From positions 310,001 through 374,000 of the forward strand of contig CAKZKD010000004.1 in the NCBI GenBank assembly GCA_937121175.1: DNA of 64,000 nucleotides, read 5' to 3'. Position numbers and translations under genes: made by a program. The notes beneath the pieces are model-generated. The model did not search any database and had not been told where the DNA came from. It was given only the letters and a program-made list of their open reading frames with translations. Of the stretch, positions 1,761-20,857 are shown piece after piece (position 1 is the first letter of the stretch; each line of letters begins with the position of its first letter). This stretch comes from an uncultured Flavobacteriales bacterium. Lineage in GTDB: Bacteria > Bacteroidota > Bacteroidia > Flavobacteriales_G > Salibacteraceae.

Positions 1761-2486
1761 CTACGAAACGTAATGCTCGATAATTTCTCCGTCCGAATTC
1801 TTAGTGAAGAAGACAGAAGAATTATTATTTCTGCTGTTCAAATAGCTGGTGTAATCATCCGAAAAACTCATTCGTTTTTCGATGGTTGTAATGAAATTCC
1901 CATTCAATCCCATAAGCATTTCACAAGCCTCACGAACACCGTGTTCACCACCGCTGTATGCCGTAATGTAATCGGCAAGCTCATGATGTCTAACGTATTC
2001 TGAAAAAGCAACTTTTGCTCTGGATTTGATAAACACTCTTGCGCCCACATTTTTAGCCACGGGTAAGTCTAAAATATCATCGTAAAAAAAGGCTATTTCT
2101 TCAGCTCGAACACCCGAATTTGCAATTAAGTGATTCAGTGCTTTTTGCTTATTTGGAACGCCGAAATATACGCTATCGAAATGCTCTCTGGTTGCAAAAT
2201 CAACCGCAGCCTCGTTGTTTGCGCCGGTCATAATTACGCTAAGTGGTAAATTTTTATTGTGAATTAACCAACTCGAAAAACGCAACATATTAGTTCCCAT
2301 GGAGTCAATCTCTGAAAATCCGGAATGGTTTCCACCACCTTTCACCCCTTCATTAAAAACACCATCCCAGTCAAAAACGATGGCTTTAATGTTTTTCAAT
2401 TTCTCCATTAAAACAAAAGGCGGAGTAATAAATTCCCCGCCTTCTGATTCAAAAATATGTTGTGTGTGTTCTGTCGAATTTTCCAC
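1761..2486 (-). CDS. KdsC-like HAD phosphatase (probable Kdo 8-phosphate phosphatase)
   Basis: This is a cytoplasmic HAD-superfamily phosphatase of the KdsC/YrbI type, likely to remove the phosphate from Kdo 8-phosphate. The catalytic motif VFDWDGVF gives Asp39 and Asp41. MTGANN is the second motif, a Lys follows in PNKQKA, and FFYDDILDLPVA is the acidic magnesium motif and resembles the KdsC consensus. At 241 residues it is longer than typical KdsC (about 170-190), with about 30 extra residues at the N-terminus and about 50 at the C-terminus. It is the last gene of the kdsA set, 9 bases after the transaldolase-CBS gene. Substrate assignment rests on this context; another sugar phosphate is possible. 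Confidence 0.78.
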   Translation of the reverse strand: MENSTEHTQHIFESEGGEFITPPFVLMEKLKNIKAIVFDWDGVFNEGVKGGGNHSGFSEIDSMGTNMLRFSSWLIHNKNLPLSVIMTGANNEAAVDFATREHFDSVYFGVPNKQKALNHLIANSGVRAEEIAFFYDDILDLPVAKNVGARVFIKSRAKVAFSEYVRHHELADYITAYSGGEHGVREACEMLMGLNGNFITTIEKRMSFSDDYTSYLNSRNNNSSVFFTKNSDGEIIEHYVS

Positions 2487-2495
2487 TTTCTGATT

Positions 2496-3506
2496 TTATT
2501 TAGCCAAGTCTTGAATGTCTAACATTCCTATTGGCTTTCCGTTTTCTAACACCAATAGAGTATCTACTTGAGTAGATTTAAAGATGTCATTAGCATCATT
2601 CAATAATGCTCCAGCATCAACAGACTTTGGAGTTCCATATTCCAAATCAGATAATTTCATATCCAAAACCGCATCGCTTTTTGTGCCAATCAGTCTTCTC
2701 AAGTCACCATCCGTAAATACACCTTTCACACTTCCCGATGCATCCAATACAGTTACACAACCGTATCCGAATTCAGTCATTTTTAAAATTGCTTCTGGAA
2801 TAGTCAGTGACTCAGAAACTGTTGGGTTTACATCTCTCAATGCAGACTTTACATTGTTGGTCATCAACTTTGTATGCTCAAAAAACTGGTCTGTACCTAC
2901 TGTAGTAAAATTGTTCTCTGTCAATTGCTTCATTACTTTCCAAGGAACAGTACATACATGAACACCGGCATTGAGGGCGTTTCTGATGTGCTCTGGATAA
3001 CGCACTGAAGAGAACATGATTTTAGTATCGTATCCGTAGTAGTTTACAGCATCAACACATTGAGAAACTAACTCCAAAGCATCGTGACCTTGATCTTGCA
3101 AACGACCAACTAAAGGACACACATAGGTTGCACCTGCCTCCATTGCCATATACGCTTGTTGAAGGGTATATACCAAGTGTACGTTCACCATAATGTCTTG
3201 GTCTGTAAGAATTTTACAGGCCTTTACACCTTCTAACGAAACTGGAATTTTAAAAACCGAAGTTTCTTTTTTCAATCCCATTTCCAACTGACGATGTGCT
3301 TCAGCAACAATTTCTTCTGCTGTTTGACCCAATGCTTCTACTTGAAGAATTGGAACCATATCGGCCAACTTAAGAATTAAGCCATCAATATCAGTCACAC
3401 CATCGCGGTGCATAAATGTTGGGGTTGTAGTAAGTCCGGTAAGGAAGCCTAATTTGAATGCGTCCTCAATTTCTGTAATGTTTGCCGAATCTAGATATAA
3501 TTCCAT
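2496..3506 (-). CDS. Transaldolase/FSA-type aldolase fused to a KdsD-like CBS domain pair
   Basis: The protein has 336 residues. Residues 1-218 form a short transaldolase (FSA/TalC type): it starts like the family (LYLDSANI), carries TTTPT near 26-30, and keeps the Schiff-base lysine at Lys86 in VFKIPVS. Residues 225-336 form two CBS motifs. Their segment GVFTDGDLRR (262-271) is characteristic of the CBS pair in arabinose-5-phosphate isomerase KdsD/KpsF. The gene lies between kdsA (31 bases upstream) and a kdsC-like gene (9 bases downstream), the place where kdsD would be expected. I infer a role in supplying arabinose 5-phosphate, possibly by joining glycolaldehyde to glyceraldehyde 3-phosphate. 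A separate stand-alone transaldolase at 20201-20857 makes a housekeeping role unlikely. The reaction is unproven. Confidence 0.85.
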   Translation of the reverse strand: MELYLDSANITEIEDAFKLGFLTGLTTTPTFMHRDGVTDIDGLILKLADMVPILQVEALGQTAEEIVAEAHRQLEMGLKKETSVFKIPVSLEGVKACKILTDQDIMVNVHLVYTLQQAYMAMEAGATYVCPLVGRLQDQGHDALELVSQCVDAVNYYGYDTKIMFSSVRYPEHIRNALNAGVHVCTVPWKVMKQLTENNFTTVGTDQFFEHTKLMTNNVKSALRDVNPTVSESLTIPEAILKMTEFGYGCVTVLDASGSVKGVFTDGDLRRLIGTKSDAVLDMKLSDLEYGTPKSVDAGALLNDANDIFKSTQVDTLLVLENGKPIGMLDIQDLAK

Positions 3507-3537: not shown

Positions 3538-4368
3538 TTATCTGTATTGAACTTCTAAATTATGTATTTCAATCAAAGGTTTTAAAAACTCCTCCAAATC
3601 ATATACACACAATTGGCTTGCTGCATCGCACAATGCTTTTTCTGGTTCTGGATGTGTTTCTATGAAAACACCATCAACACCAGCAGCTACCCCTGCTCTT
3701 GCTATGGTTGGTAAAAACTCTCTATTCCCTCCTTTTGGGTCTGCACTTGGAATACCGTACTTACGAATAGAGTGCGTAATATCAAACACTACTGGATAAC
3801 CCGGTTGTCTCAAATGATAAAAACTTCGTGGGTCTACTACCAAGTCGTTATAACCAAAGGTGTAGCCTCTTTCGGTAAGAATGATTTGGTCATTTCCTGT
3901 TTCCACACATTTTTCAACGGGCTTAATCATGTTTTCAGGAGCTAAAAACTGACCGTGTTTGATGTTCACAACCTTGCCCGTTTTTGCAGATTCTACCAAC
4001 AATTCCGATTGCATGCATAAATACGCTGGAATTTGAATAATATCCAACACCTCACCTGCTGGTGCAGCTTGTGCGGGGTTATGGATATCAGAAACTAGGG
4101 TAAAACCAAACTCGTCTTTGATTTTTTGAAGCAACTTTAGTCCTTCGTCCAATCCTGGTCCACGATAAAATTTAAGAGATGATCTGTTGTCTTTGGTAAA
4201 CGATGATTTGTAAACGATTTTGATGTTCATGCGTTCAGAAACATCTTTCAATTTCTCAGCGGTTTTCATCATGGTAGTTTCGTCCTCAATTACGCAAGGA
4301 CCAGAGATTAAAAACAGCTCGTCTGAACCGCAATCAATATCTCCAACTTTTACAATCTTTTCTGACAT
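3538..4368 (-). CDS. kdsA: 2-dehydro-3-deoxyphosphooctonate aldolase (Kdo 8-phosphate synthase)
   Basis: KdsA condenses phosphoenolpyruvate with arabinose 5-phosphate to give Kdo 8-phosphate, the first committed step of the LPS core sugar pathway. The 276 residues match the family length. Visible landmarks are SGPCVIED near 22-29, KSSFTKDNRSS near 54-64, LTERGYTFGYNDLVVD, and the C-terminal ETHPEPEKAL. Cys25 in the GPC motif corresponds to the metal-binding cysteine of the metal-dependent class (Aquifex type), while the E. coli class has Asn there. It is the first gene of the operon that continues into the transaldolase-CBS fusion and the KdsC-like phosphatase. A TAnnTTTG box lies about 23 bases upstream. 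Confidence 0.96.
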   Translation of the reverse strand: MSEKIVKVGDIDCGSDELFLISGPCVIEDETTMMKTAEKLKDVSERMNIKIVYKSSFTKDNRSSLKFYRGPGLDEGLKLLQKIKDEFGFTLVSDIHNPAQAAPAGEVLDIIQIPAYLCMQSELLVESAKTGKVVNIKHGQFLAPENMIKPVEKCVETGNDQIILTERGYTFGYNDLVVDPRSFYHLRQPGYPVVFDITHSIRKYGIPSADPKGGNREFLPTIARAGVAAGVDGVFIETHPEPEKALCDAASQLCVYDLEEFLKPLIEIHNLEVQYR

Positions 4369-4660: not shown

Positions 4661-4666
4661 ATATTG

Positions 4667-4674
4667 TACTTTTG
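4667..4674 (+). promoter_or_regulatory. Putative -7 box of the AAA/DUF4143 gene
   Basis: TACTTTTG matches the TAnnTTTG consensus and ends only four bases before the ATG at 4679. The upstream TTG at 4664 overlaps this box and is therefore not a credible start. The transcript would have almost no leader. Confidence 0.6.
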
Positions 4675-4678
4675 GGGT

Positions 4679-5875
4679 ATGATTGAAGAACTAATTACGT
4701 ATTCCGAACAGCGATTAGCAAAGACAAACAATACATTCAACCGCTACATAACCCAAGAAATTGACTGGAGCGACAACCTGTTTTCGATTGAAGGTGCGCG
4801 AGGTTCCGGAAAAACTACTTTTCTATTACAATACCTCAAGCAAAACCTAAAACCAAAGCATCGCTTGTATATTTCGTTAGACCACCTCTATTTTCAGAGC
4901 AATAATTTGTATTCGGTTTTGGAATGGGCCGCCACCAACGACATAAAATCGGTCGTGATAGACGAAGTTCACAAATACCCAAACTGGTCTATTGAGATAA
5001 AGAATATCCATGATTTGTACGACGAACTTCAAGTCATATTTACAGGTTCGGCTTTACTCGAAATTCAAAACGCAAAAGCAGACCTGAGCAGACGTGCCGT
5101 AAACTACCGACTAGACACCATGTCCTTCAGAGAGTTTTTAGAGTTTGACAAAAACATAAAAACCGAAACCTTTTCGCTTCCAGAGATTTTGAAATCGCAT
5201 GCTGAAATTTCGCAAGAAATAAAAAAACTGACCGAAGCACCCTTAGTGCATTTTCAGCGCTACTTAAAATTTGGGGCCTATCCGTACTACAAAATCAACG
5301 AGAATAATTACCATCATCGATTAATGAACACCTTCAATTTGGTATTGGAAACCGATGTTCCGGCCATAGAAAACATCACCTATACTTCTGTGCTAAAAAT
5401 GAAACGATTGCTTGCTTTCGTAGCCCAATCGGTGCCTTTTAAACCCAACATTACCAAACTAGCAGAACTCACCGAATCGAAAAGAGACACGGTACTGCAA
5501 CATTTATTAATATTGGAACGGGCACGGATTTTAAACCTGTTGCGCCCTGCTGATTCTACTCCAACGCACCTTAAAAAGCCCGAAAAAATATTCTTGGAAA
5601 ACCCCAACATTGCCCATGCCTTAACTTTTGACAAAGCACCGGATATTGGCAACCTTAGAGAGAGTTTTTTTTACAGCCAATTGTCGCACGAGCATACAGT
5701 ACACGCATCAAAAGAAAATGACTTTTTAATTGATAAAAAATATGATTTTGAGGTAGGGGGAAAAGGCAAGTCGAGCCAAAAACTAAAAAAGAAAAATGAG
5801 TTTTACGCATTGGATAATTTGGAGTTTGGCGTTCGAAATCGAATACCATTGTATTTGTTTGGGTTGATGTATTAG
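4679..5875 (+). CDS. AAA ATPase with DUF4143 C-terminal domain
   Basis: This is a P-loop ATPase of the AAA_14/DUF4143 family, 398 residues from the chosen ATG. Walker A is GARGSGKT at residues 39-46 and Walker B is VVIDEVHK near 92-99. A sensor-like TGSALLEI follows. The C-terminal DUF4143 part ends in a nuclease-like FLIDKKYDFEVGGKGKS segment. Such proteins are common accessory genes in Bacteroidota, often in many copies; their cellular role is not established. I rejected the TTG five codons upstream because it overlaps the promoter box. It stands alone, preceded by operator-like repeats, between the kdsA operon and the DUF262 gene, in a small island that separates the Kdo genes. Confidence 0.85.
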   Translation: MIEELITYSEQRLAKTNNTFNRYITQEIDWSDNLFSIEGARGSGKTTFLLQYLKQNLKPKHRLYISLDHLYFQSNNLYSVLEWAATNDIKSVVIDEVHKYPNWSIEIKNIHDLYDELQVIFTGSALLEIQNAKADLSRRAVNYRLDTMSFREFLEFDKNIKTETFSLPEILKSHAEISQEIKKLTEAPLVHFQRYLKFGAYPYYKINENNYHHRLMNTFNLVLETDVPAIENITYTSVLKMKRLLAFVAQSVPFKPNITKLAELTESKRDTVLQHLLILERARILNLLRPADSTPTHLKKPEKIFLENPNIAHALTFDKAPDIGNLRESFFYSQLSHEHTVHASKENDFLIDKKYDFEVGGKGKSSQKLKKKNEFYALDNLEFGVRNRIPLYLFGLMY

Positions 5876-6137
5876 TTACTTCTTCGCTACAAGTTTTTAC
5901 TGGTGAGAAAAGCCACAAGATGTATTGTATTGAAGGAAATAGTTCTTTAAATTAGCGGCTGAAGCGAAGGCCATATTAATTCAAAGCTGAAATAGAACTC
6001 AAATTAAAAACTTTTGTCAAAGCCTATTTGTGAAGTTCGAAATGGCTAAAATAGTAATAGCCACTTTAGATTTGAAAAAATTCATTAATAAAATCTCAAT
6101 ATCGTCAAACATTGTGTAGACGTAAATAATAAATAAA

Positions 6138-8159
6138 ATGGATACATCTCTACAATCACTATCAAAAGTATTCAGTGAAAAATTATTCAGAATCCCTGAT
6201 TATCAACGAGGATATGCTTGGACAGAAAAACAGCTAAAAGATTTTTGGAATGATTTAATTCAACTAGAGGCTGGAAAAAATCATTATATAGGTGTACTTA
6301 CAGTTGAAGAGGTTTCAAAATCACTTTATGAAAAATGGGAAGATGACACTTGGATTATAGAATCGAAAAGTTACGATCCACTTTACATAGTTGACGGTCA
6401 ACAGCGGCTAACGACCTCAATTATTCTTATCCAAGCGATTACTGAATTTATTCCTAAAGGAGGGAAACTGAATTTTAATTCAGTTGAAGAAATTAGGAAA
6501 AAGTTCATTTTTGAATCAAAAGATGATGGTATTTCTAGATCATATATTTTCGGATATGAGAAGGATAACCCAAGCTATGATTACCTTAAAAGCAAAATTT
6601 TCAATGAAGATTTGGAAGATTTTTCTTCTCAACCGGAAACCGTATATACCAATAATTTAGAATCAGCGAAGTTGTTTTTTAGGGAAAACTTATCTAAGTT
6701 AACATTTGATGAAATATCTTTATTGTTCAAAAAATTGACTCAAAATTTTCTATTCAACTCTTACTCAATCTCTTCGGATATAGATGTTTTTGTTGCATTT
6801 GAATCAATGAACAACCGAGGAAAACCACTGTCCTACTTAGAACTTTTGAAAAATAGATTGATTTATTTATCCACTAAATTTGATGTTGAAGAAAATGAGA
6901 AAAATAAATTACGTAAAAGAATTAATGAATGCTGGAAATCAATTTATCATAATCTCGGACGGAACAAGCTTGAACCATTAGCTGATGATGAATTTCTACA
7001 CAACCATTTTTTAATTTATTTCAGCAGAAAAATATATGATACAGAAAATGAAAATTTCAAAGATGAAATTACGTATCAAAGATTCTTAAGTTCTAGAAGA
7101 AGAGGGCCGTTAAACTATCCAACATTTTTACTTGAAAAACATTTCGTCACTAAAAACATCAACTGTTCGGCTCCTGAAAATGAAATTAAAATGCAGGATG
7201 TATACTTATATGTGAATAGTTTACAAAAGTCCGTAGAGTCCTGGTATAAAATATTTAATCCCATTCTTTCAGGAGGTTTTTCAGAAGAAGAAACATATTG
7301 GTTGAGTAAACTAAATAGGAAAGGAATTCATTCTGTGGCCTCGCTAATTATGGTCTTGTTTGAAGTTGAATCAGAGGAAAAAAAGAGAATTAAGTTTTTA
7401 AAAACTATTGAGAAATATTTATTCCTAATTTCAATAGTAGCATATAGAAATCATTATGGATACAGGGATTCTATATTTATTGAGCTCGCCTCTAGGCTAT
7501 CTGACGGTGAAATTTTGACGGATAAAGTAATTTCTAAAATTGCTGATACTAATAACTTAATCTACAACGATTCAGACAATAAAAAATCTATTATTAAAAC
7601 TTTTAAAAACAATGGGTTTTATCATTGGGACGGTATTAGATATTTTTTATTTGAATATGATTTAGCCTTATATGAATCATCCAAAACAAAAAGAGAAAAA
7701 TTAGTCTGGGATACGTTTTCAGACATTGATTATCATACAGTAGAACATATCTATCCACAAAATGCTAGAAAAAAATGTTGGACAGTCCCTTTTTCTAAAT
7801 ACACATCTAACGAAAAATCAATTATTCGACATTCTTTAGGAAATTTGCTACCTCTATCGAAATCTAAGAATTCAAGCTTCCAAAACAAATGTTTTTTAGA
7901 CAAGGTATCTAATCAAGTAAACTCAATTGGTTTTCGATATGGTTGTTATTCTGAAAATGAAATCACAAAATTTAATGAATGGAATGCGATATTGATTTTA
8001 GAAAGAGGAATAAGGCTTCTTGGGTATATGGAAAAACGCTGGGGCATCACTATTGGGGACGTTAATGCGAAAATTAAATTCCTCAGTCTAGAGTTTGTTC
8101 TAAAAAAGGAAGGAATTAAGGTATCTGATTTAAATCTTGCAAACACTACATTTAAGTAA
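6138..8159 (+). CDS. DUF262-DUF1524 (GmrSD-like) protein, putative type IV restriction or anti-phage nuclease
   Basis: The 673-residue protein joins both parts of GmrSD-type modification-dependent restriction systems. The N-terminal DUF262 (ParB/Srx-like) has FRIPDYQRGYAW at about 17-28 and the nucleotide-binding IVDGQQRLTT at 84-93. The C-terminal DUF1524 has a His-Me-finger/HNH-type core, VEHIYPQN with His537, followed by HSLGNLLPLSKSKNSSFQNK. In the known family DUF262 binds and hydrolyses NTP and DUF1524 cuts modified DNA. It is a single gene with no visible partner and has conspicuously AT-rich, A/T-ending codons compared with the neighbouring kds genes, which suggests recent acquisition. 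It converges with kdsB (38 bases apart). Phage targets are unknown. Confidence 0.85.
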   Translation: MDTSLQSLSKVFSEKLFRIPDYQRGYAWTEKQLKDFWNDLIQLEAGKNHYIGVLTVEEVSKSLYEKWEDDTWIIESKSYDPLYIVDGQQRLTTSIILIQAITEFIPKGGKLNFNSVEEIRKKFIFESKDDGISRSYIFGYEKDNPSYDYLKSKIFNEDLEDFSSQPETVYTNNLESAKLFFRENLSKLTFDEISLLFKKLTQNFLFNSYSISSDIDVFVAFESMNNRGKPLSYLELLKNRLIYLSTKFDVEENEKNKLRKRINECWKSIYHNLGRNKLEPLADDEFLHNHFLIYFSRKIYDTENENFKDEITYQRFLSSRRRGPLNYPTFLLEKHFVTKNINCSAPENEIKMQDVYLYVNSLQKSVESWYKIFNPILSGGFSEEETYWLSKLNRKGIHSVASLIMVLFEVESEEKKRIKFLKTIEKYLFLISIVAYRNHYGYRDSIFIELASRLSDGEILTDKVISKIADTNNLIYNDSDNKKSIIKTFKNNGFYHWDGIRYFLFEYDLALYESSKTKREKLVWDTFSDIDYHTVEHIYPQNARKKCWTVPFSKYTSNEKSIIRHSLGNLLPLSKSKNSSFQNKCFLDKVSNQVNSIGFRYGCYSENEITKFNEWNAILILERGIRLLGYMEKRWGITIGDVNAKIKFLSLEFVLKKEGIKVSDLNLANTTFK

Positions 8160-8196: not shown

Positions 8197-8955
8197 TCAC
8201 CCTTCCTTCTCCCCCAACAACCTTCTCACCTTTTTCAAGTCATCAATCGTATCTACTGGAATCGTATCAAAATGAGTAAGCTCAACATGAATGGCATTTC
8301 CATTTTCAATCCAACGGTTTTGTTCAAGCGCTTCTACTTTTTCGAGTTGAGTGCTTTCTAAAGAGGCAAACTCTTTCAAGGCTTCATAACTGTATGCGTA
8401 CAACCCAACGTGTTTGTAATACGTGTGATGCTCTAACCAATGTGTCTTGTGGATTCCTCTAACGTGAGGAATCACCGCTCGACTGAAATACAGTGCTTTT
8501 TTATTTTTATCAAAAACCACAAATACCTCGCTTTCGTTGAACAAATCTTGCGCAGATTGCACCGGACTCACCAAGGTCGATAGACGAACACCGTCATTTG
8601 AAAAAGGCCGAATTAATTCGTTCAATTGTTCTGGCTCTAGCATTGGTTCATCGCCTTGCACATTTACAATTACATCAAACTTCTCACCCAGTTCTTTCGA
8701 AATATTTTCGTAGGCTTCCAAACAACGTGTAGTGCCATTTTCATGGTCAATAGAGGTCATAACCACATTGCCGCCAAACTCCAAAACAGTTTGCTTTATC
8801 CGCTCGTCATCGGTCGCTACATAAGCGGTTGGAATAGCTTTTAAAGTTTGCTCGTAAACACGCTGAATCATGGGTTTTCCCAAAATATCCAATAAAGGTT
8901 TTCCTTCTAAACGTGAACTTCCAAATCGTGCTGGAATAATTGCTATCGCCTTCAT
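8197..8955 (-). CDS. kdsB: CMP-Kdo / CMP-Kdo8N synthetase (cytidylyltransferase)
   Basis: KdsB activates the octulosonate sugar with CTP before transfer to lipid A. The 252 residues include the nucleotide-binding start IIPARFGSSRLEGKPL (about 6-21), VATDDERI, VNVQGDEP and FSRAVIPH. Family members acting on Kdo generally have GTE/DR in the sugar-binding loop, whereas this protein reads ENGTTRC. Together with the adjacent kdnA and kdnB this suggests preference for 8-amino-Kdo, as reported for the Shewanella enzyme. That preference is inference. The gene is divergent from kdnA, and their -7 boxes lie about 15 bases apart, so the two are probably expressed together. Confidence 0.92.
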   Translation of the reverse strand: MKAIAIIPARFGSSRLEGKPLLDILGKPMIQRVYEQTLKAIPTAYVATDDERIKQTVLEFGGNVVMTSIDHENGTTRCLEAYENISKELGEKFDVIVNVQGDEPMLEPEQLNELIRPFSNDGVRLSTLVSPVQSAQDLFNESEVFVVFDKNKKALYFSRAVIPHVRGIHKTHWLEHHTYYKHVGLYAYSYEALKEFASLESTQLEKVEALEQNRWIENGNAIHVELTHFDTIPVDTIDDLKKVRRLLGEKEG

Positions 8956-9040: not shown

Positions 9041-10234
9041 ATGCCGGGATTAGAGCTTTTTGGAGACGAAGAAAGAAAGGAAGTAATGGACGTTTTGGAC
9101 TCAAAATGTTTGTTTAGATACAACCATGAACACCTAAGAAATGGACATTGGAAAGCCAAAGAACTAGAAGCTGAAGTAATGAACTTTACGGGTGCAAAAT
9201 TCGCCCATGCGGTTTCAAGTGGCTCAACAGCTGTAGCTTGTGCAATGGCGAGTGCTGGCATAGGTTATGGTGACCACGTTATTGTTCCTCCATTCACCTA
9301 CATTGCTACTATTGAGGGGGTTATATTTGGCGGCGGCGTTCCTGTTTTTGCTGAGATTGACGAAAACTTGTGTTTGTCTGCAGCTGGAATTGAAGCGGCC
9401 ATTACCCCAGAAACAAAAGCGGTTTGTCTGGTTCACATGTGTGGTGCTGCCGCAAACATGGACGAAATAATGGAGGTGTGCAACAAACACAACCTTACTC
9501 TTATTGAAGATGCTGGTCAGGCATTGGGCGCTTTTTACAAAGGCACATCAGCTGGCTTGTTTGGAAAAACGGGTGCATATTCATTCGATTTCTTTAAAAT
9601 AACTACTGCTGGTGAAGGTGGATTGTACGTTACAAATGACGAGGAATGCTACAAATTGGCAGATTCTTATTCTGATCACGGTCATGACCACATTGGTGCA
9701 AACCGAGGAATGGAGCAACATCCCATTTTAGGATTCAACTACCGATTGAGTGAATTACACGCAGCGGTTGGTTTGGCTCAAATGCGAAAAATCAATACGA
9801 TTCGTGATACCAATAAAAAGAACAAAACTTACCTCAAAAACTTATTGGCAGGAACTGAAGGGCTTTCATTCAGACCAATACCGGACGAAGAAGGCGATAG
9901 CGGAACTTTCCTAAACTTCTTTTTACCCGATACAGAAACAGCTCAAAAAGTTATGGCTGAATTCGGGAAAATGGGTATTGGAGGATTCAACTATTGGTAC
10001 ACCAACATGTATCACTTCATCAACCAATGGGACCATCTTAAAAAACTGAAATCTGCAGCACCATTGCACTTGCACAAAATGGATTTACCTCAAGATTACA
10101 ACAACTTAGATTTACCAAAGTCTCAAGAAGTTGTAGGTCGATTGATTTCTTTGGGAATCAGTACGCAATGGACTGAGGAGCAAATGAACGAATTAGCAGC
10201 GAATATGAAAACTGCAATTGCTAACGCAATTTAA
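9041..10234 (+). CDS. kdnA: 8-amino-3,8-dideoxy-manno-octulosonate transaminase
   Basis: KdnA is a PLP-dependent DegT/DnrJ/EryC1-type aminotransferase that puts an amino group on the C8 aldehyde of oxidised Kdo, giving Kdo8N. The 397-residue protein closely resembles my recollection of Shewanella oneidensis KdnA: it begins MPGLELFG, has RYNHEHLRNGHWK near 26-38, VHMCGAAANMDEI near 131-143, and SDHGHDHIG in the middle. The PLP lysine is Lys186 in FDFFKITTAGEGG. The gene is divergent from kdsB and is followed, after an inserted four-helix-bundle gene, by its partner kdnB. Family assignment is strong; the specific reaction is supported by the kdnB and kdsB context. Confidence 0.9.
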   Translation: MPGLELFGDEERKEVMDVLDSKCLFRYNHEHLRNGHWKAKELEAEVMNFTGAKFAHAVSSGSTAVACAMASAGIGYGDHVIVPPFTYIATIEGVIFGGGVPVFAEIDENLCLSAAGIEAAITPETKAVCLVHMCGAAANMDEIMEVCNKHNLTLIEDAGQALGAFYKGTSAGLFGKTGAYSFDFFKITTAGEGGLYVTNDEECYKLADSYSDHGHDHIGANRGMEQHPILGFNYRLSELHAAVGLAQMRKINTIRDTNKKNKTYLKNLLAGTEGLSFRPIPDEEGDSGTFLNFFLPDTETAQKVMAEFGKMGIGGFNYWYTNMYHFINQWDHLKKLKSAAPLHLHKMDLPQDYNNLDLPKSQEVVGRLISLGISTQWTEEQMNELAANMKTAIANAI

Positions 10235-10288: not shown

Positions 10289-10669
10289 ATGTCTTACAAG
10301 AATTTGAAAATATGGGAAGAAGCTCGGGAACTTCATATTGCAGTGCATAAGATGACGCTGAAGGAACTTCCTTCATTCGAAAAATTTGAAACAGGCTCAC
10401 AATTGCGTCGTTCTATTAAATCGGTTAGAAGCAATATTGTTGAAGGCTATGGCAGAAGAAGATACAAAGCTGAATTTATTCGGTTTTTAATTTTTTCTGA
10501 AGCTTCGCTTGATGAATCAAAAGACCATATTGAAGGTTTATTTGAGACAAACAGTTTAAAAGATGAACAATTATTCAAAACCCTTGTAGAAAAAGCAGAG
10601 CAGCTTGGGAAACAATTAAGACGATTTATTGAAGCAGTAGAACGTCAACATAATAATCCGAAATCTTGA
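10289..10669 (+). CDS. Four-helix-bundle (S23/IVP family) protein
   Basis: This 126-residue protein belongs to the S23/IVP four-helix-bundle family, first seen inside 23S rRNA intervening sequences and widespread as solitary genes in Bacteroidota. Landmarks are [13 protein letters not shown] at the start, [19 protein letters not shown] near 39-57, and [16 protein letters not shown]. Its function is unknown; nucleic-acid binding is often suspected. It sits between kdnA and kdnB. It is preceded by two copies of AAAGGATTCAAG and followed by runs of heptamer repeats, which suggests that it was inserted as a unit into a former kdnA-kdnB operon. No ribosomal RNA gene is nearby. Confidence 0.9.
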
Positions 10670-10772: not shown

Positions 10773-11855
10773 ATGCAACACATCAATTTCAACAACATAG
10801 GCAAAATCTGCTACGGTCCTGGAAGCTTCTCGCAACTTGAAGAAATAATTGAACCGCGCAGAGTAGATAACAAAGGCTACATGGTTTTTGTAGTGGACGA
10901 TTACTTTGAAGGAAAGGAATTAGCGACACAAATTCCAGCTTTGGAAAATGACCGAGTGTATTTCATTGATGCCAGTCATGATGAGCCAAAAACCTCTCAA
11001 ATTGATGAATTGCGTGATGAGTTACTAGCCGACCAAGGCTTGCCTTCTGGAATAATCGGAATTGGTGGCGGAAGTATTATGGACATAGCCAAGGCATTAG
11101 CCTTAATGGTTACTAATGAGGGTTCTTCCGTTTTGTACCAAGGATTGAATTTGATTAAAAAGCCCGGCATCTACCATTGTGGTGTTCCTACCATTTCCGG
11201 AACTGGAGCGGAATGTTCTATGACGGCTGTACTTTCTGGCCCAGAAAAAAAACTAGGGTTAAAGTGCGAATGGACGGTGTTTAATCAAGTAGTGCTTGAC
11301 CCTACTCTGACTGCCTCAGTTCCTAAAGACCAATGGTTTTATACAGGAATGGATACTTTCATTCATTGTATCGAAAGTGCTACTGGTATCAAATACAACA
11401 CCTTCTCAAAAGCCTACGGAGATCAATCTATTGCATTGTGCAATGAAGTATTTCTTGGAGAAAATGCGGGTCAAAATCCTGAAAACGACGAAAAATTAAT
11501 GCTTGCTTCTTTGTTCGGAGGATTGAGCTTGACGTATTCCGAAGTGGGTGTTTGTCACGCTTTATCTTACGGATTAAGTTTTGTTTTTGGAACACGTCAC
11601 GGTTACGCAAACTGCCTAGCCTTTAATCATTTAAAGGACGTTTACGGTGAGGCCGTTGACCAATTCCATGGAATGCTGGAACGATTTGCCGTAAAGCTAC
11701 CTCAGAACTTATCAGCTGATTGGACCGACGAAGAAATCACTGCCATGGCACAAATTGCAATTCGACTGGAGCACATGTGGAATCACGCTTTTGGCCCAGA
11801 CTGGAAAAACAAGGTTTCTATGGAATACATAGAAAGCCTATACCGAAGAATGTAA
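10773..11855 (+). CDS. kdnB: 3-deoxy-manno-octulosonate 8-oxidase (Fe-type alcohol dehydrogenase)
   Basis: KdnB is a metal- and NAD-dependent dehydrogenase of the iron-ADH family. It oxidises the C8 hydroxyl of Kdo to the aldehyde that KdnA then aminates. The 360 residues contain the NAD-binding IGIGGGSIMDIAKAL (about 95-109), PTISGTGAECSMTAVLSG, and the metal-binding histidines in FIHCIESATG and GVCHALSYGLSFVFGTRHG. The resemblance to Shewanella KdnB and the presence of kdnA make the assignment specific; without them it would only be an iron-ADH. A TTG-started ppx gene follows after 10 bases, so the two may be cotranscribed. Confidence 0.9.
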   Translation: MQHINFNNIGKICYGPGSFSQLEEIIEPRRVDNKGYMVFVVDDYFEGKELATQIPALENDRVYFIDASHDEPKTSQIDELRDELLADQGLPSGIIGIGGGSIMDIAKALALMVTNEGSSVLYQGLNLIKKPGIYHCGVPTISGTGAECSMTAVLSGPEKKLGLKCEWTVFNQVVLDPTLTASVPKDQWFYTGMDTFIHCIESATGIKYNTFSKAYGDQSIALCNEVFLGENAGQNPENDEKLMLASLFGGLSLTYSEVGVCHALSYGLSFVFGTRHGYANCLAFNHLKDVYGEAVDQFHGMLERFAVKLPQNLSADWTDEEITAMAQIAIRLEHMWNHAFGPDWKNKVSMEYIESLYRRM

Positions 11856-20200: not shown

Positions 20201-20857
20201 ATGAAATTTTTTATCGATACTGCAAATCTTGAGCAAATTAAAGAAGCGGAAGCATTAGGCGTTTTAGATGGTGTAACTACTAATCCTTCGCTAATGGCTA
20301 AGGAAGGAATTACAGGGCATGACAACATTCTGAAACACTATGTTGACATCTGTAATATTGTTGATGGTGATGTGAGTGCTGAAGTTATTTCAACTGACTT
20401 TGAAGGTATGATTCGCGAAGGGGAAGCCTTGGCAGAATTACATGAAAATATTGTGGTTAAAATACCTATGATTAAAGACGGCGTTAAGGCGCTCAAGTAT
20501 TTTTCTAATCAGGGAATTAAAACCAATTGCACATTGATTTTCTCTGCCGGACAAGCTCTTTTAGCTGCAAAAGCAGGTGCAACTTATGTTTCTCCTTTTA
20601 TCGGACGATTGGATGATATTTCTGTAAACGGATTGGATTTAATTGCTCAAATCAGAGGTATTTACGATAACTATTTGTACGAGACTCAAATACTGGCAGC
20701 TTCAATAAGGCATACCATGCACGTAATCAACTGCGCTGAAATTGGTGCAGACGTAATGACTGGACCTCTTTCTTCTATTACCGGTTTACTGAATCACCCA
20801 CTGACAGATAGTGGTTTAGAGAAGTTTTTGGCAGATTATAACAAGGGGAATAAGTAG
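20201..20857 (+). CDS. Transaldolase (short FSA/TalC-like form)
   Basis: The 218-residue protein is the stand-alone short transaldolase of Bacteroidota, acting in the non-oxidative pentose phosphate pathway. Motifs are [10 protein letters not shown] at the start, [13 protein letters not shown] near 24-36, the Schiff-base Lys87 in VVKIPMI, and [14 protein letters not shown]. It closely parallels the aldolase half of the transaldolase-CBS fusion at 2496-3506. Transaldolase and fructose-6-phosphate aldolase activities cannot be separated by eye; the first is more likely for the only stand-alone copy seen here. Confidence 0.9.

Follow-up and report, generated by a model that had tools for sequence, protein, structure and literature searches.

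Our analysis suggests that a gene encoding a transaldolase-type barrel joined to a KdsD-type CBS pair is probably a non-orthologous replacement of KdsD, in which a class I aldolase scaffold would supply arabinose 5-phosphate (A5P) to KdsA under KdsD-type CBS control. The genomic comparisons give strong support to this putative enzyme as the A5P supplier that stands in for KdsD: the host genome has no KdsD, and the fusion and KdsD exclude one another almost perfectly across genomes that carry kdsA. The gene lies in the window, by which we mean the whole 64-kb stretch of DNA analyzed (Table 1).

Table 1. Features of the fusion gene and of the Kdo genes in the window
Feature	Position	Strand	Basis
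TAL-CBS fusion gene, putative A5P-forming enzyme, 336 aa	2496..3506	minus	ORF, Pfam, NCBIfam, AlphaFold
Transaldolase/FSA-type TIM barrel, residues 1-216	2859..3506	minus	Pfam TAL_FSA, structure match
Codon of Schiff-base Lys86	3249..3251	minus	Invariant in 93 fusions and 15 transaldolases
Thr28, donor-pocket change (Asn in all compared transaldolases)	3423..3425	minus	Alignment; role of FSA Asn28 (PMC13259622)
His110, changed catalytic-water residue (Thr in transaldolases; FSA Thr109)	3177..3179	minus	Alignment; PMC13259622
Cys130-Pro-Leu132, changed donor pocket and proton shuttle (TAL/FSA: Ser/Ala, Phe/Tyr)	3111..3119	minus	Alignment
KdsD-type CBS pair, residues 224-335	2502..2837	minus	Pfam, NCBIfam, profile, PDB search
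GVFTDGDLRR motif, residues 262-271	2694..2723	minus	Translation
kdsA (Kdo8P synthase), clade found only with the fusion	3538..4368	minus	NCBIfam above cut-off; tree; clade-specific residues
Divergent KdsC-like HAD phosphatase (kdsC')	1761..2486	minus	NCBIfam below cut-off; adjoins fusion in 59/80 loci
kdsB (CMP-Kdo synthetase)	8197..8955	minus	NCBIfam; tree
KdnA-like DegT aminotransferase, putative Kdo8N step	9041..10234	plus	Homology and context
KdnB-like Fe-dependent alcohol dehydrogenase, putative Kdo8N step	10773..11855	plus	Homology and context

The fusion gene and its locus

Pfam assigns only two kinds of domain to the protein, with a TAL_FSA match of 118 bits over residues 3-220 and a CBS match of 53.5 bits in two stretches from residue 227; the SIS isomerase domain of KdsD/KpsF is absent. 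The initial annotation had described a short transaldolase with a Schiff-base Lys86 joined to two CBS motifs and placed between kdsA and a kdsC-like gene, and both points were borne out. The lysine lies in the motif VFKIPV and is present in 93 of 93 fusions, and the gene is flanked by kdsA upstream on the same strand (above the model cut-off) and by a KdsC-like HAD gene downstream (below it). An AlphaFold2 model based on 47 relatives has a mean pLDDT of 91.5, and VIA-align superposes its barrel on the transaldolases of B. subtilis, T. maritima and T. acidophilum with Z of ~29. By its fold and Schiff-base lysine the protein belongs to the TAL_FSA superfamily; the F6P aldolase/transaldolase model TIGR00875 gives it 166 bits against a cut-off of 246. 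Linkage to kdsA, kdsC and kdsB places the gene in the Kdo gene set. Since this architecture and gene order recur in scores of genomes, the fusion is not a chance product.

Two plus-strand genes, for an ATPase-like protein of 403 aa and a DUF262/GmrSD-like protein of 673 aa, separate kdsA from kdsB at 4664-8159 of the window. The two kds genes adjoin in close relatives (e.g., L063 and L065), and the intervening pair is a lineage-specific insertion. The names KdnA and KdnB follow the Kdo8N pathway of Shewanella, and were chosen because of family, pairing and recurrent position beside kdsA. Between the two kdn genes (10289-10669) lies a small protein of 126 aa resembling the four-helix-bundle (S23-like) family.

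Absence of KdsD from the host genome

No SIS domain occurs within the 64-kb window, as had been noted at the outset, and the search was extended with PF01380 (SIS) and TIGR00393 (KpsF/KdsD) to the rest of the host genome, an assembly of 3.73 Mb rated 100% complete. Neither a canonical nor an SIS-only KdsD was found with these two models. The SIS-domain matches were GlmS (two halves of one protein with GlmS layout), GmhA, a GmhA-like protein, a MurQ-like protein and PGI/PMI. Both GmhA and PGI/PMI score above cut-off, and the GmhA-like match is weaker and lies in a polysaccharide cluster. Across the complete genome the KpsF/KdsD model recovered nothing beyond CBS proteins unrelated to KdsD, the CBS portion of the fusion itself and a weakly matching segment of GmhA. 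This genome thus contains no recognizable KdsD, and its SIS proteins fit the functions of GlmS, GmhA, GmhA-like, MurQ and PGI/PMI proteins. The idea that the fusion is the cell's only transaldolase was also rejected: an ordinary transaldolase is encoded separately at 20201-20830, and the housekeeping function is therefore covered.

Mutual exclusion of the fusion and KdsD

The fusion family has at least 558 relatives in genome contigs of Bacteroidota. In a sample of 42 genomes of the order, 25 carry kdsA, and every one of these has exactly one of the two types: the fusion in 17 and KdsD in eight, with no overlap (seven KdsD, plus one SIS-only KdsD adjoining kdsA; Fisher p = 9e-7, ignoring phylogeny). 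A phylum-wide sample of 158 genomes, which included that of the window, contained 117 with kdsA; KdsD was found in 113 of them, the fusion only in three, neither in one and both in none. One further genome in this sample has KdsD without a kdsA match. When the samples were merged, with the window's genome counted once, the 141 kdsA genomes (sampled irrespective of KdsD) divided into 121 with KdsD only, 19 with the fusion only, one with neither and none with both. The survey suggested in the initial annotation, of whether the fusion co-occurs with absence of KdsD, thus gave near-perfect mutual exclusion across kdsA-bearing genomes.

The exclusion pattern partly follows lineages. However, at least four families (f1, f2, f5 and f11) and one genus (g9) each hold both states without overlap, and this split is a better argument than the Fisher tests, which give very small probabilities but ignore phylogeny. 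In a separate set of 49 named genomes, chosen only for carrying the fusion, KdsD was absent from 45. Two of the four genomes with both also have a second kdsA of the ordinary type, and these look like intermediates of an exchange of KdsD for the fusion; the other two (G199 and G221) have both KdsD and the fusion, but their only KdsA is of the fusion type.

In all four dual genomes (L165-L168: G201, G233, G221, G199), a gene for a RecQ-like helicase is found next to KdsD or close by, a neighborhood that is perhaps the ancestral place of KdsD. The single kdsA genome with neither type at the thresholds used (G064, L153) is complete; no kdsD was seen near its kdsA, and the kpsF model found none genome-wide.

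Partner genes

Neighborhoods were counted at 80 named fusion loci. The gene most often found beside the fusion is kdsC' (59 loci), followed by kdsA (49), kdnB (33), kdnA (32) and kdsB (27); KdsD is a neighbor in none of the 80. A WaaA-like gene recurs in nine loci. In nine loci where kdsA is not adjacent (L076:8683-9891 and eight others), the fusion is preceded at a distance of ~78 bp by a phosphoglycerate kinase gene in the same orientation.

The KdsA proteins of fusion genomes form one clade with a stem of 0.81 and support of 100/100, whether or not kdsA adjoins the fusion. Nine residues are specific to this clade, including A47D (in KANRSS), F103Y, R106M, K125H, Q188R, P190Y and S232C in Aquifex numbering, several of which lie around the A5P and PEP sites. 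The motif Lys-x-Asn-Arg-Ser-Ser, which separates Kdo8P synthases from DAHP synthases, is kept. In contrast to KdsA, the KdsB proteins of fusion and KdsD genomes are intermixed in their tree, on which the fusion label has to change five times or more; the end product should therefore still be Kdo. Since KdsA sorts with the fusion and KdsB does not, the simplest reading is that the pathway entry (fusion, KdsA and KdsC') changed as a unit and that Kdo or Kdo8N was retained as the activated sugar. The changes in KdsA could mean that the fusion channels its product to KdsA or that KdsA uses a different substrate, either of which would be new.

KdnB was present in 13 of the 17 fusion genomes of the order and in no KdsD genome. 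A strict tie of the fusion to Kdo8N is ruled out by the four fusion genomes of the order without KdnB, but this co-occurrence means that the fusion may be linked to Kdo8N and not to Kdo as such, which has to be kept in view.

The rebuilt active site

The 93 fusions were compared with 15 transaldolases. Asp6, Glu57, Lys86, Asn108, Arg135, Ser167 and Arg169 are kept in 93/93, whereas Asn28→Thr, Thr110→His, Ser/Ala130→Cys, Phe/Tyr132→Leu, Ala165→Phe and Ala166→Ser are replaced in 93/93. In FSA, the donor is touched by Asn28 and its site is shaped by Ala129, while the catalytic water is held by Gln59, Thr109 and Tyr131 (PMC13259622). From the FSA/transaldolase set of Asn28, Gln/Glu59, Thr109, Ala/Ser129 and Tyr/Phe131, the fusions keep Glu alone and replace the other four (93/93). 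In TalB, the acceptor phosphate is bound by two Arg and one Ser (PMC3962226). The pattern of kept and replaced residues therefore indicates that the acceptor-phosphate side is retained and the donor side rebuilt. Losing the equivalents of Asn28, Thr109 and Tyr131 could lower aldolase activity. Neither these replacements nor the nearby kdsB, kdnA and kdnB had been pointed out in the initial annotation.

The fusion thus shares its fold (Z 27-29), Lys86, Asp6, Glu57, Asn108 and the phosphate-binding Arg135/Ser167/Arg169 with the FSA/TalC-type transaldolases of B. subtilis (3r8r), T. acidophilum (3s0c) and E. coli (1l6w), but differs from them in the six replaced residues, the extra CBS pair and scores below the family cut-offs.

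The CBS pair

The initial annotation had recognized a KdsD-type CBS pair from the GVFTDGDLRR motif, and this assignment held. When the CBS pair alone was compared with the PDB, its best three matches were arabinose 5-phosphate isomerases. With a profile built from the CBS pairs of the fusions, KdsD CBS pairs reached 56-78 bits as against 32 for IMPDH. Within the motif, F264-T265-D266-G267 and R270 are invariant in 47 aligned fusions. The match to the kpsF model is confined to the CBS part (154-267), and the score of this model alone was discarded as proof because IMPDH CBS pairs score similarly; the profile and PDB search were used for that reason. The best match of all, PDB 4o9k, contains bound CMP-Kdo, so the fusion may be inhibited by its pathway's end product. 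The CBS pair probably senses CMP-Kdo or CMP-Kdo8N, and we infer feedback control of the fusion through it.

KdsD, GutQ and KpsF, which join an SIS domain to a CBS pair, resemble the fusion in the kind of CBS, the genomic role with kdsA/kdsC and the mutually exclusive occurrence, but the catalytic domain of the fusion is a TAL_FSA barrel with a Schiff-base lysine and not SIS. The Bacteroides-type SIS-only A5P isomerase (as in G006) likewise stands in for full-length KdsD beside kdsA; unlike the fusion, it keeps SIS and has no CBS domains.

In the sister genus g8 of the same family, a ribulose-phosphate 3-epimerase domain (Rpe, PF00834) and a CBS pair make up a protein of 334 aa, whose gene shares an operon (L217:7226-9869 in G029; also L218 and L219) with those for a DAHP-synthase-like protein of 332 aa (KPRTS) and a HAD protein resembling KdsC/KDN9P phosphatase. 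An adjacent CBS/DAHPS pair occurs in 12 genomes, all of which except G017 are without kdsA, KdsD and the TAL-CBS fusion, and most of which have kdsB. Here, it seems, yet another catalytic domain, the third, has been combined with CBS regulation next to a synthase for an ulosonate.

Candidate reactions and alternative explanations

A5P could be held as an aldimine on Lys86 as F6P is, because A5P is F6P minus C1, with the same stereocenters and an equal spacing between imine and phosphate. An aldose substrate would fit the loss of those residues that serve the donor C1-OH and the catalytic water (Asn28, Ser/Ala130, Thr110, Tyr/Phe132). Ribose 5-phosphate (R5P) may be epimerized at C2 through this aldimine, either by deprotonation and reprotonation or by retro-aldol cleavage and re-addition, with His110 as a possible new acid-base. 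Among the candidate reactions we lean weakly towards this epimerization, at somewhat less than even confidence, because its sole requirement is a central metabolite and His110 would have a function in it. The aldol reaction of glycolaldehyde with glyceraldehyde 3-phosphate (G3P) is ranked second and more tentatively, and direct isomerization of Ru5P or another reaction is possible for the remainder. The TalB F178Y variant forms both A5P and R5P (PMC9947464); given that FSA also yields A5P, the scaffold can reach both C2 epimers. TalB F178Y and FsaA are thus precedents for A5P formation on this scaffold, but in engineered or in vitro use and without a known physiological role in Kdo synthesis. 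The PDB entry 3upb is, by its title, a transaldolase crystal with covalently bound A5P. In the literature that was searched, no paper covered a transaldolase with Kdo8N or A5P with a transaldolase plus CBS domain; on A5P and transaldolase, the papers listed gave the FSA/TalB and GFAT precedents and no natural fusion.

The initial annotation had proposed that the fusion makes A5P from glycolaldehyde and G3P in place of KdsD. The absence of KdsD and the mutual exclusion uphold the role of supplier, while the chemistry is possible but unproven because the fusion pocket differs from that of FSA. As a special case of A5P supply, an FSA-like aldolase acting on free glycolaldehyde seems rather unlikely. 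For E. coli FSA, which has been used in vitro and in vivo, glycolaldehyde is the reportedly preferred donor and GAP the preferred acceptor, with A5P as the product (PMC6298115, PMC9947464); the stereochemistry is the same, Lys86, Asp6 and the phosphate site are retained, and the upstream phosphoglycerate kinase gene of nine loci would also fit. However, the Tyr131 proton shuttle of FSA and its Asn28, Thr109 and Ala129 are all replaced, no recurring neighbor of the fusion makes glycolaldehyde and a steady supply is not evident. One analysis, in a Calvin-cycle setting, puts the need for glycolaldehyde above 1 mM (PMC6298115), although the irreversible pull of KdsA would relax this. The remodelling of KdsA makes an altered KdsA substrate the main rival to A5P supply: the fusion could provide another aldose phosphate for a different 3-deoxyulosonate, with the divergent phosphatase adapted in the same way. 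We regard this as improbable. The single long-stemmed KdsA clade, with several of its nine specific residues near the active site, and the low score of the KdsC homologue are consistent with it, but KdsA retains Lys-x-Asn-Arg-Ser-Ser, KdsB is mixed in its tree, the module alternates with KdsD among genomes that keep kdsB, and WaaA-like genes accompany it.

It is very improbable that A5P comes from another enzyme, such as a GmhA-like SIS protein or GlmS through its isomerase domain, and that the fusion is an ordinary or regulatory transaldolase. Eukaryotic GFAT does isomerize Ru5P to A5P and rescues an E. coli mutant (PMC11301363), and the host has GlmS and two SIS-only proteins. Nevertheless, an E. 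coli ΔkdsD ΔgutQ strain is an A5P auxotroph despite its GlmS (PMC11301363), it is the fusion specifically that alternates with KdsD, the host already has an ordinary transaldolase, and the active site of the fusion differs from that of a transaldolase. Returning to A5P supply by the fusion, one form of it would be a new enzyme activity, a Schiff-base pentose-phosphate 2-epimerase on a class I aldolase scaffold that converts R5P directly to A5P under CMP-Kdo(8N) feedback through a borrowed CBS pair, works with a co-adapted KdsA and replaces KdsD across much of Bacteroidota; we put this combination forward as a somewhat doubtful possibility.

Significance

Formation of A5P is the committed step that leads into Kdo, an LPS component required by the outer membrane of most Gram-negative bacteria, and KdsD has been proposed as a target for antibacterials. 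If the fusion does supply A5P, most likely by different chemistry, then many Bacteroidota that lack KdsD would enter this essential pathway of the outer membrane by a route not described before. The fusion would also be a natural A5P enzyme, built on a scaffold that synthetic pathways for one- and two-carbon compounds employ, and an instance of a regulatory CBS module moved between unrelated enzymes while the pathway was kept. Hundreds of Bacteroidota species would then use a second, unrelated catalytic solution, and a gap in their metabolic models would be filled.
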